The translations under genes and the position numbers were made by a program. A DNA stretch of 64,000 bases from Metabacillus sediminilitoris (GTDB taxonomy: Bacteria > Bacillota > Bacilli > Bacillales > Bacillaceae): NCBI RefSeq assembly GCF_009720625.1, contig NZ_CP046266.1:4693501-4757500 (forward strand), given 5' to 3'. Below the pieces are notes generated by a model. It made no database searches, was not told the DNA's origin, and saw only the letters and a list, made by a program, of their open reading frames with translations. Position 1 is the first letter of the stretch. Each line of letters starts with the position of its first letter. Shown here one piece after another: positions 33,851-39,103 of the stretch.

Positions 33851-34240
33851 TTATTTCTTTTTTATAACGGCCATTGTACAACGTGATATACAAATTAAAT
33901 GATCCATTTCATCAACTATCTTAATTTCCCATACCATTGTTGTCTTTCCTTGATGTAAAGGCTTTGCATATGCGGTAACCATTCCTGACTCTTTTCCGCG
34001 AACATGATTAGCGTTTATTTCCATACCGACACAAATTTCAGTTTCATGGTTAATTAAATAGTAGGTTCCTACACTTGCAACTGTTTCTGCTAATGCAACA
34101 GAGGCTCCACCATGTAACATACCATATGTTTGACGTGTGCGTTGATCAACAGGCATTGTTGCAACAACTTCTTCAGCTGTAACAGATGTTATCGTAATGC
34201 CTAAGGCTTCCATCAATGTATTTTTAATATCGATGTCCAT
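33851..34240 (-). CDS. yuxO: Hotdog-fold acyl-CoA thioesterase YuxO (MenI-like)
   Basis: 129 aa. PaaI-type hotdog enzyme with LHGGASVALAETVAS (catalytic Glu) and GMEINANHVRG. B. subtilis YuxO has been assigned as the 1,4-dihydroxy-2-naphthoyl-CoA thioesterase of menaquinone synthesis. It lies between mrpG and comA, as in B. subtilis. Start preceded by AAAGGGGGAGTTAG. Confidence 0.88.
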   Translation of the reverse strand: MDIDIKNTLMEALGITITSVTAEEVVATMPVDQRTRQTYGMLHGGASVALAETVASVGTYYLINHETEICVGMEINANHVRGKESGMVTAYAKPLHQGKTTMVWEIKIVDEMDHLICISRCTMAVIKKK

Positions 34241-34268: not shown

Positions 34269-34910
34269 TTAATCAATGATTCCTTCTGCTTTTGCAATAA
34301 GAACTGCTTCTGTACGCGTACTAACATTTAGCTTATTAAATATCGCTGTTAAGCTATATTCAATCGACCTTTTGCTTAGATGAAGATGATCGGCAATTTC
34401 CTGATTTGTCAGTCCCTTTTCAACTTCTTGCAAGATCGCTTTTTCACGTTCATTAAAGTCTTGTCGGTCCGAATTTGTTTCAATCATTTCCGCTTGTTTC
34501 TGACTAAGCAGATTTTTAAAATATTGATACGGTACTACAATGTCACCTTCAATTGCATGGTGAATATAGGTTAATAGTTTCTTTTTTGATTCTGTCTTAC
34601 TAACAGCTCCATGGATACCAATTCGAATGGCTTCATCGAAATAATCCCAAACATCATATCCAGTGTATAGAATGATTTTACAAGAGTGATTCTTATGTAT
34701 GACTGTTTTCGATATTTCCATCCCATTTATATCACCTAAGTTTAAATCCATTAAAATCACATCAAATGGTGATAAGTCAATATTATTTATTGCTTCAACA
34801 GTATATGGAGGATCTAAGCAATCAACCTTAATCCCTGGCTCAGCCTCAAGTATTGCTTTTGTACCTTCTCGAACTGCTGGATGATCATCTACGACTAAAA
34901 TATGTATCAT
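34269..34910 (-). CDS. comA: Competence response regulator ComA
   Basis: 213 aa (B. subtilis 214). NarL-type: receiver with phospho-acceptor Asp in VILMDLNLG and conserved YTGYDVWDYFDEAIR, then a LuxR helix-turn-helix (NQEIADHLHLSKRSIEYSLT) almost identical to B. subtilis ComA. Phosphorylated by ComP, it activates quorum-controlled promoters such as degQ and srfA. It is preceded by a terminator-like hairpin after comP, so it may be made partly by readthrough. Confidence 0.95.
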   Translation of the reverse strand: MIHILVVDDHPAVREGTKAILEAEPGIKVDCLDPPYTVEAINNIDLSPFDVILMDLNLGDINGMEISKTVIHKNHSCKIILYTGYDVWDYFDEAIRIGIHGAVSKTESKKKLLTYIHHAIEGDIVVPYQYFKNLLSQKQAEMIETNSDRQDFNEREKAILQEVEKGLTNQEIADHLHLSKRSIEYSLTAIFNKLNVSTRTEAVLIAKAEGIID

Positions 34911-35017: not shown

Positions 35018-37318
35018 CTATATCTCAACATCAATTTTTAATCCATTACCTTTTGACGTATTTATCGTAATTGAGCCTTTTAATGCTTTTACACGCTCAC
35101 TAATTCCCGACAAGCCCATACTTTCAGTCTTATCATAAAAATCTCTATATTCAAAGCCTACTCCATTATCTTCATAATGCAGAACAATTTTTTCTTTAAT
35201 ACAAACTAATATAATAAGAACTTGTGATGCTTTTGAATGTTTGTGTGCATTTGTTAAAAGCTCTTGAACAATGCGATAAATGTTTAATTGTGTATCAATA
35301 TCAAGTGTTATTGTAAAGTTGCCTGTATTGATACGAATGTCAAAATCAACATATTCCTGATATTGCATAACAAGCTTATTTAATGCTTTTACTAAACCTA
35401 AATCATAAAGTAATTGTGGACGAAGTTCTTGGCATGTCTCACGTGTCGTTTTAATGATCTTTGTCATACTGCTATTCATCTCTTGCAGCTTTTTCTTTAA
35501 TTGACTTGAATCCGCATCAACTTCAACTAATGCAAGCTCACACTGTCTCTTTAAAGACACTAAATCTTGCAGCACAGAATCGTGAAGATCCTTCGCTAAA
35601 TTAGAACGTTGCTTCTCTTCGATCGAAAACAACAGCTTCGTCAGCCAGCCTGGATTATGTCCTTCTGTCTCAAGCTTTTGCATATGCTGCATAAGTTCGT
35701 CAATCTTTAAAAAATTCTCTAAAGAAACATTTGTGTAGAATGATAAGGTTTTTAACCAAGAAATTTCGTCTCTTGTGAGTCTTGGTGTATTAAGAATAGA
35801 TAAGCAAAGCAAAACATAGCTTTTATTTTCAGTTTCACCAGTATTAATGACAAATCCTCGATCTACTTCGATGATTTTCCCAATTTCATCAGTTACATCT
35901 CTTATCTGTTTAATATATGGGCTATAATCCGCTTCTTTAGCGTTTAAATCAACAGATGTAAGATTTTTTTCACGATCCACTTCAATAAAATAAGCTTTAC
36001 TTACAAGTAAAACATCTAAAATAACTTGTTTTAACTCAGAAACAACATGCTCTAAATTACTTGCCTTTCTGATACTTTGTGTGTATTTAAAAATGCTATC
36101 TTGATAGTTATATTTTTCAGAAAATCTTTTAAATCGAAAGCGGAAATCCAAGATTTCTTTGGAATAGAATATTAAAACTATTACTAAATAGATATATACA
36201 GATAGCCTAATTGGATAAAAGGTTGGGTTATTTTCTTTTAATAAGAGCATAATTCCTACTATAATAAATGAGGGAATAACTGCTAATAATGAGTAATACC
36301 TAATTCTTCCTAATAGAAAATCTATATCATATATTTTAGTAGCTAAGAATTGATATACCAAAGAAAAAGGAATTAATAATAAAAAGGCAGCTAAAAAAGT
36401 TGCTGAAAAGATATACTTTTGAAAGATAACATATGGTATAACGTAAAATAGTAAAAAGGGTGTAAATGCTATTACGTTTGTCATTATAAGAATCTTTACT
36501 ATATAAGCTTGCTCAGAATATTTTATTTTTTTCAGACCTGTAAACTTTAAAACAAAGGTTAAAACAAGTAAGAATAAAAATGAACATAGATTTAATATTC
36601 TATTAAAATCAAAGTTGTTTACTATTAGCATATTTTGAACTATTTCTGAAACGAAGTTAATAATTACCAGGAGATAGCCAATTCTTAGGAAATTGAAACT
36701 AAATAGTTTTTTTCCTAATTCTTGAAAATATTGATATATAAAATGAAGGTAGCTCACAGGAACTAATAAAAAAAGAGTCAAATTAATATATCGACTTATT
36801 GAATCTCCTCTTGAAGAACCACTTGCACTTATATATGCCATACCAATAATTAAAAGAAACAAATTTAAAAAGTGAGCAGACCTTAAATTTACACCTTTGT
36901 TTGTTCGATAGACGAAAAAAATACAAAATAAACATAAAAAAAGGACAGTCAAAGGAATTATTATAATAAACAAACTTTGATAACTAATAAGTGATGTTGG
37001 TATTTCAAATTCTTTTATTGTACCATTTTGTAAAACCTTTAAATCATATACTTGTTCAAGAATTCCATATTTTATAGCTGGGCTGTGTAACAACGGATCT
37101 TCATTATTAATTTCTAAAACAACGTCGTTTAGATGAATGCCAACTTTTTCAGCCCACGTCTTTGGTTCAATAACATTTATCAACATTTCATTATCACTTG
37201 TTACTTTAACACCAGCTCCAACATACGGATACTTATAATTCAAGTGTATGGTGTAAAAAGTTACAATTATGCTGAGTATGACTGCTATTTGAATTATTCT
37301 ATTAAAGGTAATACGCAT
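35018..37318 (-). CDS. comP: Quorum-sensing histidine kinase ComP
   Basis: 766 aa. An N-terminal helix leads to an extracytoplasmic PDZ-like domain (about 30-105, KVGIHLNDVVLEINNED). Multiple membrane helices follow (about 110-380), then a HisKA_3 domain with the phospho-acceptor in LAKDLHDSVLQDLV and an ATPase domain (NAHKHSKASQ, DNGVGF, GLSGISERV). It senses the ComX pheromone and phosphorylates ComA. ATG at 37318 follows GAAAGGTG; comX ends 22 nt upstream. The sensor half is expected to be pherotype-specific. Confidence 0.93.
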   Translation of the reverse strand: MRITFNRIIQIAVILSIIVTFYTIHLNYKYPYVGAGVKVTSDNEMLINVIEPKTWAEKVGIHLNDVVLEINNEDPLLHSPAIKYGILEQVYDLKVLQNGTIKEFEIPTSLISYQSLFIIIIPLTVLFLCLFCIFFVYRTNKGVNLRSAHFLNLFLLIIGMAYISASGSSRGDSISRYINLTLFLLVPVSYLHFIYQYFQELGKKLFSFNFLRIGYLLVIINFVSEIVQNMLIVNNFDFNRILNLCSFLFLLVLTFVLKFTGLKKIKYSEQAYIVKILIMTNVIAFTPFLLFYVIPYVIFQKYIFSATFLAAFLLLIPFSLVYQFLATKIYDIDFLLGRIRYYSLLAVIPSFIIVGIMLLLKENNPTFYPIRLSVYIYLVIVLIFYSKEILDFRFRFKRFSEKYNYQDSIFKYTQSIRKASNLEHVVSELKQVILDVLLVSKAYFIEVDREKNLTSVDLNAKEADYSPYIKQIRDVTDEIGKIIEVDRGFVINTGETENKSYVLLCLSILNTPRLTRDEISWLKTLSFYTNVSLENFLKIDELMQHMQKLETEGHNPGWLTKLLFSIEEKQRSNLAKDLHDSVLQDLVSLKRQCELALVEVDADSSQLKKKLQEMNSSMTKIIKTTRETCQELRPQLLYDLGLVKALNKLVMQYQEYVDFDIRINTGNFTITLDIDTQLNIYRIVQELLTNAHKHSKASQVLIILVCIKEKIVLHYEDNGVGFEYRDFYDKTESMGLSGISERVKALKGSITINTSKGNGLKIDVEI

Positions 37319-37340
37319 TAATAACACCTTTCAATTAATA

Positions 37341-37499
37341 TTAAATCCAATAAAAATTTTTTAATGAAGCTGAACCAAGAATTCCCTCTATTACTCCTAA
37401 AACATCGTCTAATTCCACACCTAATAAGCTTGCTTGGCCATTAACAACTTTCTCTAGTACGTCTGGATTTTCAATTAAAAAGTTTACGATTTCTTGCAT
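37341..37499 (-). CDS. comX: ComX pheromone precursor
   Basis: 52 aa, too short for usual ORF cut-offs. The N-terminal half MQEIVNFLIENPDVLEKV, with SLLGVELDDV after it, follows the ComX pattern (B. subtilis MQDLINYFLNYPEAL). The C-terminus SASLKNFYWI holds a single Trp, penultimate, the residue ComQ isoprenylates. The mature pheromone is the modified C-terminal peptide. AAGGAGAG within the comQ end precedes the ATG; comQ stops 2 nt earlier and comP follows. Confidence 0.93.
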   Translation of the reverse strand: MQEIVNFLIENPDVLEKVVNGQASLLGVELDDVLGVIEGILGSASLKNFYWI

Positions 37500-37501
37500 G
37501 G

Positions 37502-38443
37502 TTATCTCTCCTTATTAGTTGGTTTTTTATTTATTATCAAATGAGATTTAATTTTCTCTATATGAATTTCTTTTATGTCTAAACTTTCTATTTTCTTTTT
37601 TGCTCGATTAATAGCAACTTGCTTAATTACATTTAAGTATTGCATCACACCTGAATCGAACAGAATTTGTTTATAGTTTTCGATACTGCCGAATTCTTCT
37701 ATTATTTCTCTGCCACTTTCAATAAACTTCATTAATACATGAGAATGTTCATTGTAGCCTTTCTCTAAATAAAGATATGCAAGAGATTTTTTTTTTGAAG
37801 TGATGTCATTTTTATTTAAATTAAATAAATCTCTGAAATCGTTATCTGCTTGTGCAGCAATTCCAACTTGATATGAATATTCTTCAACTTCAGGGAAATT
37901 AGCCCCTGCTAACAACATTCCGCTTACCGAAGCTAAAGCAATAAGGGAACCTGCTTTACGCTTCATCACATGCAAACATTCTTCTTCTGTGCTCATTAAA
38001 TTTTGCAAATCATCATGTTGTCCCTCCATTGCTTTCATGGAGAATTGTAAAAACGCTGATAGTACTTGATGTTTATATGGTGAGGAGAGGTTTAAAACAG
38101 TTTGTTGGCTTATTGTGTAAAGTGTTGTTGCAGCATTGATTGCAATGGAGCGATCAATTTGCATCCATAGTTCTTTCATATTATCTAAATCCTCAAGATC
38201 ATCAAACATGTCAAAAGATAAAATTAGTAATTCAATTGCTGCGGCTAGTTGTATAATTTCTGAGTCTTTACCGCCAAATGCCTCATGATGAATGATGGCT
38301 AATTGTCCAAAATTAACGATTTGCTTGTCTTCCACAAAAGAAAATAATAGATCTTGTAGCTCAGAATGTTCTAGTTGTGAGGAAATAGATTGCAACATGT
38401 GCCTTTTAATAGATTGACTCTCAACTTCTGCTATAACAACCAC
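37502..38443 (-). CDS. comQ: ComX isoprenyl transferase ComQ
   Basis: 313 aa. Isoprenyl-diphosphate-synthase-like fold: first aspartate-rich motif in MFDDLEDLDN, the MEGQHDDL segment and MKRKAGSLIALASVSG, all as in ComQ. It modifies the Trp of ComX with a geranyl or farnesyl group and is needed for secretion of active pheromone. The start is uncertain: the annotated GTG overlaps its own GAGGTGG site, and an internal ATG at 38398 has only AAAAGG close by. Confidence 0.92.
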   Translation of the reverse strand: MVVIAEVESQSIKRHMLQSISSQLEHSELQDLLFSFVEDKQIVNFGQLAIIHHEAFGGKDSEIIQLAAAIELLILSFDMFDDLEDLDNMKELWMQIDRSIAINAATTLYTISQQTVLNLSSPYKHQVLSAFLQFSMKAMEGQHDDLQNLMSTEEECLHVMKRKAGSLIALASVSGMLLAGANFPEVEEYSYQVGIAAQADNDFRDLFNLNKNDITSKKKSLAYLYLEKGYNEHSHVLMKFIESGREIIEEFGSIENYKQILFDSGVMQYLNVIKQVAINRAKKKIESLDIKEIHIEKIKSHLIINKKPTNKER

Positions 38444-38636: not shown

Positions 38637-38793
38637 AAAGGCTCTTATCTAATAGATTGTTGCTTTAAAATGAAAACTCTTAAGGTTGATTGGAGCAGAT
38701 TGCGAGACTCCTGAAGCGAGCATCCTCTAGCAGCAAACAACCACACCTCAATACTCGGTAAATGGAAACAAAGTTTGTGAAAACAGCCAAATA
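38637..38793 (-). repeat. Dispersed intergenic repeat, family A (reverse orientation)
   Basis: Read on the minus strand it starts GGCTGTTTTCACAAACTTTG, includes GGTGTGGTTG, GAGGATGCTCGCTTC and TCTCGCAATCTGCTCCAATC, and ends near ATTAGATAAGAGCC. These segments line up with the copies at 43522-43750 and 55582-55768. It fills much of the gap between comQ and degQ. Confidence 0.8.
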
Positions 38794-38822
38794 AAAAAAC
38801 TTGGCTAGTAGCCAAGTTTTTT
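38793..38822 (-). terminator. Terminator of degQ
   Basis: AAACTTGGC / GCCAAGTTT stem with A/T runs on both sides, adjoining the degQ stop. Confidence 0.85.
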
Positions 38823-38961
38823 AAGAAACATTCAGAATTGCGTATTTATCATACTTATCTATACTTCTATTTATACAACGTAAAGATTCTTTTGTCTCTT
38901 TAATATCTTGTTCAATTTTTATTAATAGCTCAGTCATTTCATCAATTTTTTGCTGATCCAT
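38821..38961 (-). CDS. degQ: DegQ, pleiotropic regulator of degradative enzymes
   Basis: 46 aa, the exact length of B. subtilis DegQ, and clearly related: ELLIKIEQDIKETKESLR and NRSIDKYDKY match ENDIKETTDSLR and NKSIDQLDKY. DegQ stimulates phosphotransfer from DegS to DegU and so raises secreted enzymes and other DegU outputs. AAAAGGAGTGTG precedes the ATG. It lies upstream of comQ as in B. subtilis, and a ComA-box-like site lies about 130 bp upstream. Confidence 0.93.
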   Translation of the reverse strand: MDQQKIDEMTELLIKIEQDIKETKESLRCINRSIDKYDKYAILNVS

Positions 38962-39087: not shown

Positions 39088-39103
39088 GTGCGTGATACCG
39101 CAA
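39088..39103 (-). promoter_or_regulatory. Candidate ComA binding site upstream of degQ
   Basis: On the minus strand TTGCGGtatcACGCAC has a perfect left half and a 4-of-6 right half of the ComA consensus TTGCGG-N4-CCGCAA, 127 nt before degQ. degQ is a known ComA target in B. subtilis, which supports the call. Confidence 0.5.

Follow-up and report, generated by a model that had tools for sequence, protein, structure and literature searches.

A penultimate tryptophan as the usual ComX ending in comQXPA loci sampled outside the Bacillus subtilis group, with the locus of Metabacillus sediminilitoris as a case

Our analysis of a 64,000-nucleotide stretch of the Metabacillus sediminilitoris chromosome (the window) centres on a comX locus that forms a genuine and complete comQXPA quorum-sensing system, probably in working order; among the loci that we sampled beyond the B. 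subtilis group, the penultimate Trp of its ComX precursor is the usual arrangement. The reading we prefer, at a probability of a little under four in five, sees a working locus in which an aromatic-Trp-X tail would be prenylated and read by a PDZ-like part of ComP, ComA would pass the signal on to degQ, and signal and sensor would diversify as an exchangeable cassette. The window comX gene itself is ordinary for Metabacillus; the notable part is the family-wide pattern together with a cassette that is free of comQ.

Table 1. Features of the comQXPA locus and its neighbours (positions in the window)
Feature	Position	Strand	Basis
menI (yuxO)-like thioesterase, downstream neighbour	33851..34240	-	4HBT; MenI_Listeria 145.5 bits, below the cut-off of 185
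comA, response regulator	34269..34910	-	Response_reg and GerE
comP, membrane sensor histidine kinase	35018..37327	-	HisKA_3 and HATPase_c
Hypervariable comX-3'/comP-5' cassette, approximate extent	36200..37400	-	Carried over from four close Metabacillus pairs
ComP extracellular PDZ-like domain, between the first two helices, limits approximate	37001..37219	-	PF00595, model, Foldseek
comX, pheromone precursor, tail SASLKNFYWI	37341..37499	-	PF05952, ribosome site
Penultimate Trp codon of comX (residue 51), predicted prenylation site	37347..37349	-	Sequence; invariant in 17/17 Metabacillus loci
comQ, tryptophan prenyltransferase	37502..38443	-	PF00348 67.5 bits; motifs; place in ComQ tree
ComQ pseudo second Asp-rich motif NDFRD, residues 201-205	37829..37843	-	Gln three residues before
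ComQ first Asp-rich motif DDLED, residues 81-85	38189..38203	-	DDxxD in 106/106 aligned ComQ
degQ-like, 46 aa, upstream neighbour, probable output gene	38821..38961	-	Homologues adjoin comQ in relatives
ComA-box-like site TTGCGGTATCACGCAC, 142 nt upstream of degQ	39088..39103	-	10/12 consensus bases

The locus is complete in the order degQ-comQ-comX-comP-comA-menI, all on the minus strand of a genome assembled as one 5.6-Mb contig, with comQ directly upstream of comX and with comP and then comA adjacent downstream (Table 1). The preliminary description of this DNA had placed comX in the company of comQ and comP in a non-subtilis species, which is borne out, and comA is present as well. The upstream neighbour is a gene that we take to be degQ; between it and comQ lies a mechanically called ORF of 56 aa (window 38645-38815). 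The comX ORF listed for the window (52 aa, ATG start, ribosome site AAGGAGAGATAACCATG) ends ...GSASLKNFYWI and places Trp at residue 51, so that ORF, tail and penultimate Trp are real as first described. Pfam ComX (PF05952) scores 38.8 bits against a cut-off of 25 and matches residues 1-30 only, which leaves the tail uncovered by the model, and a search of NCBIfam gave no family for the window ComX. That the ORF is not due to chance follows from its matches in 16 further Metabacillus genomes (71-90% identity) and from a Trp that stays second from the end in all 17 Metabacillus sequences at this locus, the window counted.

How common this ending is was judged from 139 ComX-candidate ORFs, namely the window's own, 120 places found by Pfam or ComX searches in genomes of the family and the order, and 18 from a sample of the class. 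The surveys at order and class level took in 397 and 398 genomes, as samples, and detect only ComX seen by the Pfam model, so very divergent ComX are missed. Five of 45 places outside the window's family (G434, G201, G215, G226, G359) were left out as weak or lying inside long frames. ComX of the B. subtilis type sit in one genus of the window's family (the subtilis-group genus), and the tail of one member there, LSKKCKGIFWEQ, is identical to the RO-E-2 peptide given in PMC5331326. Outside this genus Trp is penultimate in 85 of 95 candidate ORFs, spread over 31 of 37 genera and 17 of 21 families, and Tyr or Phe precedes it in 74 of the 85. The exceptions have Trp third (four ORFs), fourth, fifth or last (one each) or none near the end (three: L212, L214 and L257, all kept in the 95; L257 is probably not a ComX). 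Within the subtilis-group genus a penultimate Trp occurs in 2 of 44 rows; in its other rows the last Trp is third (19), fourth (10), fifth (6) or twentieth (4) from the end, or sixth, seventh or last (1 each), and five of the 44 rows have two Trp within their last 22 residues. When the count is confined to those of the first 121 rows that are complete comQXPA loci (15 are incomplete by the thresholds of our analysis), the penultimate Trp is found in 60 of 63 outside the genus as opposed to 2 of 43 inside. The comparison of ComX C-termini thus does not make the position special to the species, and a rare or species-private Trp position is ruled out by the 85 of 95 ORFs outside the subtilis-group genus. 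Rather, with a penultimate Trp being usual among sampled relatives outside the B. subtilis group, it is the textbook ComX signal that looks exceptional.

This bears on how the literature on ComX is to be understood. A review of ComX chemistry, which covers seven Bacillus strains, gives Trp as third or fourth from the C-terminus in the natural ComX of six strains, as twentieth in that of natto, and regards a prenylation consensus common to ComX as apparently nonexistent (PMC5331326). The window ComX does not share the third-or-fourth trait of those six strains and, judged by the sequences sampled here, this is a trait of the strains studied, not of the ComX family; indeed, the sampled loci from beyond the B. 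subtilis group do show a consensus, Tyr/Phe-Trp-any residue-end. The variants named in the preliminary description (RQWGD, FWEQ) both have Trp third from the end, so that 'third' stands for them and 'fourth' does not, and its range of third or fourth is too narrow even for the subtilis-group genus, where positions 5, 6, 7 and 20 occur too. Elsewhere, comQXPA has been found beyond the B. subtilis group (Dogsa et al. 2014, PMC4008528), the target of ComQ is termed an internal Trp (PMC10853753, PMC13290415) and the parts of PMC5385187 and PMC4408185 covered here hold nothing bearing on Trp position in ComX. No description of a natural penultimate-Trp ComX was found in the literature searched, which was available in part, and one may exist in print. 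The claim of a new variant therefore stands as to the lack of a report in that literature but not as to its being isolated, given the 85 of 95 ORFs.

A tree of ComQ (121 rows) unites the subtilis-group genus in a single branch of 44 rows (SH-aLRT 97), inside which Trp position shifts often. Scored as 'second' versus 'other', Trp position changes 7 times over the tree, while shuffles average 38 changes; the tree was built by a quick method, is unrooted and has long branches joined. As it is unrooted, an 'ancestral' penultimate Trp is something we infer. A tentative wider scenario, to which we give somewhat less than even odds, may nevertheless be envisaged: aromatic-Trp-X-COOH would be the original ComX format, with its C-terminus read by a PDZ domain, one constant lipid from ComQ and pherotypes arising by cassette swap, and the B. 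subtilis group would have relaxed Trp position and, in some of its members, drawn comQ into the variable block.

In our preferred reading ComQ would attach a geranyl (possibly a farnesyl) group to the indole of this penultimate Trp, the prenylated Trp would cyclise into the tricyclic form familiar from B. subtilis, and the short ComX tail would be cleaved off and exit the cell. Consistent with this, window ComQ carries DDxxD and a pseudo-second motif of the NDxxx/GDxxx type, both motifs being required for Trp prenylation by ComQ (PMC5331326), and has the conserved Gln tied to this activity (PMC13290415). A different cause for keeping Trp, such as leader folding, export or a prenyl-free contact with ComP, in a lineage that leaves it unprenylated, might be argued from the lack of any chemistry for a natural penultimate-Trp ComX in the literature searched, which was seen in part. 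We consider it very unlikely, as DDxxD (106/106 aligned ComQ), NDxxx (63/63 outside the subtilis-group genus) and the Gln ahead of the second motif (106/106) are all kept and ComQ RO-E-2 modifies Trp at the second position in vitro, where Trp must be second, third or fourth from the end and the minimum substrate, LSKKCKGIFWE, has an aromatic-Trp-X end of its own, FWE (PMC5331326). Within the subtilis-group genus the second motif of ComQ reads NDxxx in 40 of 43, SD twice and GD once, and near-identical ComQs serve tails with unlike Trp positions (L155 vs L111, L107 vs L116), which fits the tolerance of ComQ in vitro. A search of solved structures with ComQ returned two remote isoprenyl synthases.

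As for prenyl length, the residue four before DDxxD is Phe in window ComQ and in the ComQ beside the RO-E-2 ComX, Ala in the natto type (four loci, Trp at position 20) and Ser in what we take to be the 168-type locus, whose prenyl group is presumably farnesyl. By analogy with the control of chain length in farnesyl diphosphate synthases the Phe hints, from one residue and very few reference enzymes, at a geranylated Trp in the window ComX. In line with the types compared, RO-E-2 ComX is geranylated and natto-type ComX farnesylated (PMC5331326). If prenylation holds, the penultimate-Trp tails would offer uniform substrates for the study of ComQ and a testable PDZ ligand, as well as a naturally occurring set of receptor/signal pairs whose ComQ hardly differs, in which modification could be separated from recognition.

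Turning to the receptor, comP has a ribosome site and is listed with a GTG start, although an ATG at 37318 looks likelier from the sequence around it. Window ComP has HisKA_3 and HATPase_c domains; the membrane helices that precede them appear only in a low-confidence model (mean pLDDT 65, built from nine sequences). The same model forms the ectodomain from strands and short helices at block pLDDT 76-90, and PF00595 (PDZ) matches it at E=0.00025, below the Pfam cut-off. With Foldseek the model finds CtpB, CtpA, DegS and AlgW over about 80-100 columns (E about 0.02-0.2, all above 0.001), some of these PDZ entries containing bound peptides, behind two animal receptors that rank first and match chiefly via helices; a search of solved structures yielded PDZ matches at E 0.56-0.96. 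PDZ domains commonly bind free C-termini, which would explain why Trp keeps a fixed distance from the end. The free C-terminus, aromatic-Trp(prenyl)-X, would be read by the PDZ-like ectodomain of ComP together with its membrane part. A possible parallel comes from B. amyloliquefaciens, a member of the B. subtilis group, and the ComX tails of that group differ from the window's in Trp position. For its ComP a PDZ domain that lies outside the cell, between membrane helices one and two, has been proposed to bind ComX (PMC9620489); the PDZ-like stretch of window ComP would be its counterpart.

What varies around the fixed Trp was followed in 17 Metabacillus loci, the extra com copies of G002, G005, G006 and G019 being left out. 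Over ComX residues 1-42 there is hardly any variation (mean entropy 0.36 bits), Trp never changes and residue 50 is always Tyr or Phe, while the most variable position is the last residue (2.5 bits), followed by residues 47 and 49 (2.1 and 2.0). Five close pairs (G012/G001, G008/G017, G013/G009, G011/G016, G006/G005) conserve comQ (82-97% identity), comA (95-100%) and ComP from 421 to its end (90-99%) and diverge in the last ten residues of ComX (50-70%) and in ComP 1-130 (37-75%); in a pair with identical tails (G019/G006) ComP 1-130 is 98% identical. At the DNA level, identity in four of the pairs (G001/G012, G005/G006, G013/G009, G008/G017) falls to 50-83% in the bin starting at comX +100 and is regained 1,300-1,750 nt past the comX start. 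The flanks of this hypervariable comX-3'/comP-5' cassette are 88-100% identical and comQ lies outside it, which rules out that comQ, comX and comP always diversify as a single block. The window has no relative near enough for such a profile, and its cassette limits in Table 1 are taken from these pairs. Moreover, G005 shares its cassette with G003 at 93-99% and has both flanks closer to those of G006, which points to exchange. We therefore envisage that Trp and its distance from the C-terminus would stay fixed, that surrounding residues (above all the last, fourth and sixth from the end) would vary and travel with the ComP ectodomain as one cassette, and that comQ would remain constant.

Statistics on tail and receptor are compatible with such co-travel. 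Given ComQ and ComA, the last four residues of ComX show a partial rank correlation with ComP 1-130 (r 0.32, p 0.0025), and the control, ComX 1-42 against ComP 1-130, gives r -0.05. There are further correlations of ComP from 421 to its end, both with the tail (r 0.18-0.39) and with ComX 1-42 (r 0.24, p 0.04), and a scan by 40-residue blocks gives r 0.38 for ComP 81-120, r 0.31 for 201-240 and r 0.36 for the kinase block 601-640; since the kinase part correlates too, the statistic does not localise the contact with the tail.

Is the window signal then a pherotype of its own? One might suppose a species-private pherotype, newly arisen when Trp moved one place endward, because the last six residues (KNFYWI) are absent from every other ComX among the 139 compared and the natural positions reviewed are 3, 4 and 20 (PMC5331326, seen in part). 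As to Trp position this is contradicted by the penultimate Trp in 85 of 95 ORFs and 31 of 37 genera outside the subtilis-group genus and, as to the receptor, the nearest ComP 1-130 are those of G012 (62%, tail KNYYWI) and G016 (61%, tail KNFYWY), so we hold it to be unlikely. The nearest ComQ are those of G013 and G009. Since the window ComP ectodomain is closest to those of species with KNYYWI and KNFYWY tails, the data suggest that the window signal belongs to a shared, cassette-borne signal group; the distinct pherotype first proposed is distinct in the letters of its tail but has a receptor that groups with Metabacillus species of near-identical tails.

Downstream of the receptor, ComP would phosphorylate ComA, which would turn on degQ through the upstream box. 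The site was scored against what we assume to be the ComA-box consensus. All 74 same-family loci that have degQ (7 of 81 are without it) carry, upstream of the gene, a site that agrees with the consensus in 10 or more of its 12 bases, a count without shuffled control. In the genome the exact pattern TTGCGGN5CGCA occurs once, at the site in Table 1, and a control pattern occurs twice, so only place and conservation speak for the ComA-box-like site. That the locus is decaying and the strain has lost signalling would be in keeping with some Metabacillus genomes that are without comX, comQ or comA at the site; to our minds it is highly improbable, as all four com genes are open and full length, their motifs and the box-like site are intact and both comX and comP have ribosome sites.

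The closest known system is ComQXPA of B. subtilis (168, RO-E-2, natto and others), which shares with the window gene order, precursor length, ComQ motifs, ComP domains, the degQ and menI neighbours and a ComA-box-like site, and differs in having Trp third, fourth or deeper where the window has it second. It also differs in part as to comQ, which falls within the variable block in comparisons of the 168-type locus with three others including the natto type, as opposed to outside in the four close Metabacillus pairs; comQ clusters are given as 65-70% identical in PMC4408185. Nonetheless, comQ is outside the block in G100/G113, G102/G103 and G023/G033, so that comQ-free cassettes extend beyond Metabacillus to one pair in genus g4 (G023/G033) and two pairs of the subtilis-group genus; block limits are less sharp in G039/G108/G059, G045/G025 and G021/G029/G032. 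The 'Non-B. subtilis-like' clade of Dogsa et al. (2014, PMC4008528) likewise consists of canonical comQXPA loci from beyond the B. subtilis group whose ComX has a Trp close to its end; the parts of the main text covered here leave the Trp position in that clade unstated and Metabacillus unnamed. More distant is PalX/PalQ of Paenibacillus alvei (PMC10853753), where, as in the window, an end Trp follows aromatics (core DNVRRFFW; there it is prenylated) and a histidine kinase is clustered. Unlike window ComX, PalX has Trp as its last residue, added alanines abolish its activity and its leader is of the NHLP type, PalQ being at most 25% identical to ComQ. The window precursor has a ComX leader, no other Pfam match and a Trp that is not last, and so falls outside the PalX type.

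Several com loci depart from the canonical arrangement. In Metabacillus G002, G007 and G015 the usual site (L276, L277, L278) reads degQ-comQ-comP-menI, with neither comX nor comA found there and a comQ-comP gap of about 50-60 nt, and a second site (L284, L281, L282) has a comX (tail SLSKFWM), a comP of 46% identity and comA in convergent orientation; their com system seems to be split, with ComQ perhaps acting from afar. The draft genomes of L279 (G024), L280 (G090), L173 and L214 show degQ-comQ-comA-menI with comX-comP on another contig, the ComX-like ORF of G090 being without Trp near its end. L283 (Metabacillus G010) reads degQ-comP-comA-menI, and searches of the 240-contig draft for comQ (E up to 1e-4) and for ComX found nothing, so its ComP is perhaps a listener, a receptor without a signal of its own. 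Extra com loci occur in three Metabacillus genomes (L098 and L102 in G019, L099 in G006, L100 in G005) and are of two types, one being comX (QSYFWR)-comP-comA with no comQ match within 2 kb upstream and the other a very divergent comQXPA whose ComX ends RKAWRN. Finally, in a stretch that gave no ComQ match, L245 (G507) combines comP in two frames and comA with a ComX-like ORF in which Trp is last (..VPFYW), an ending that recalls PalX.
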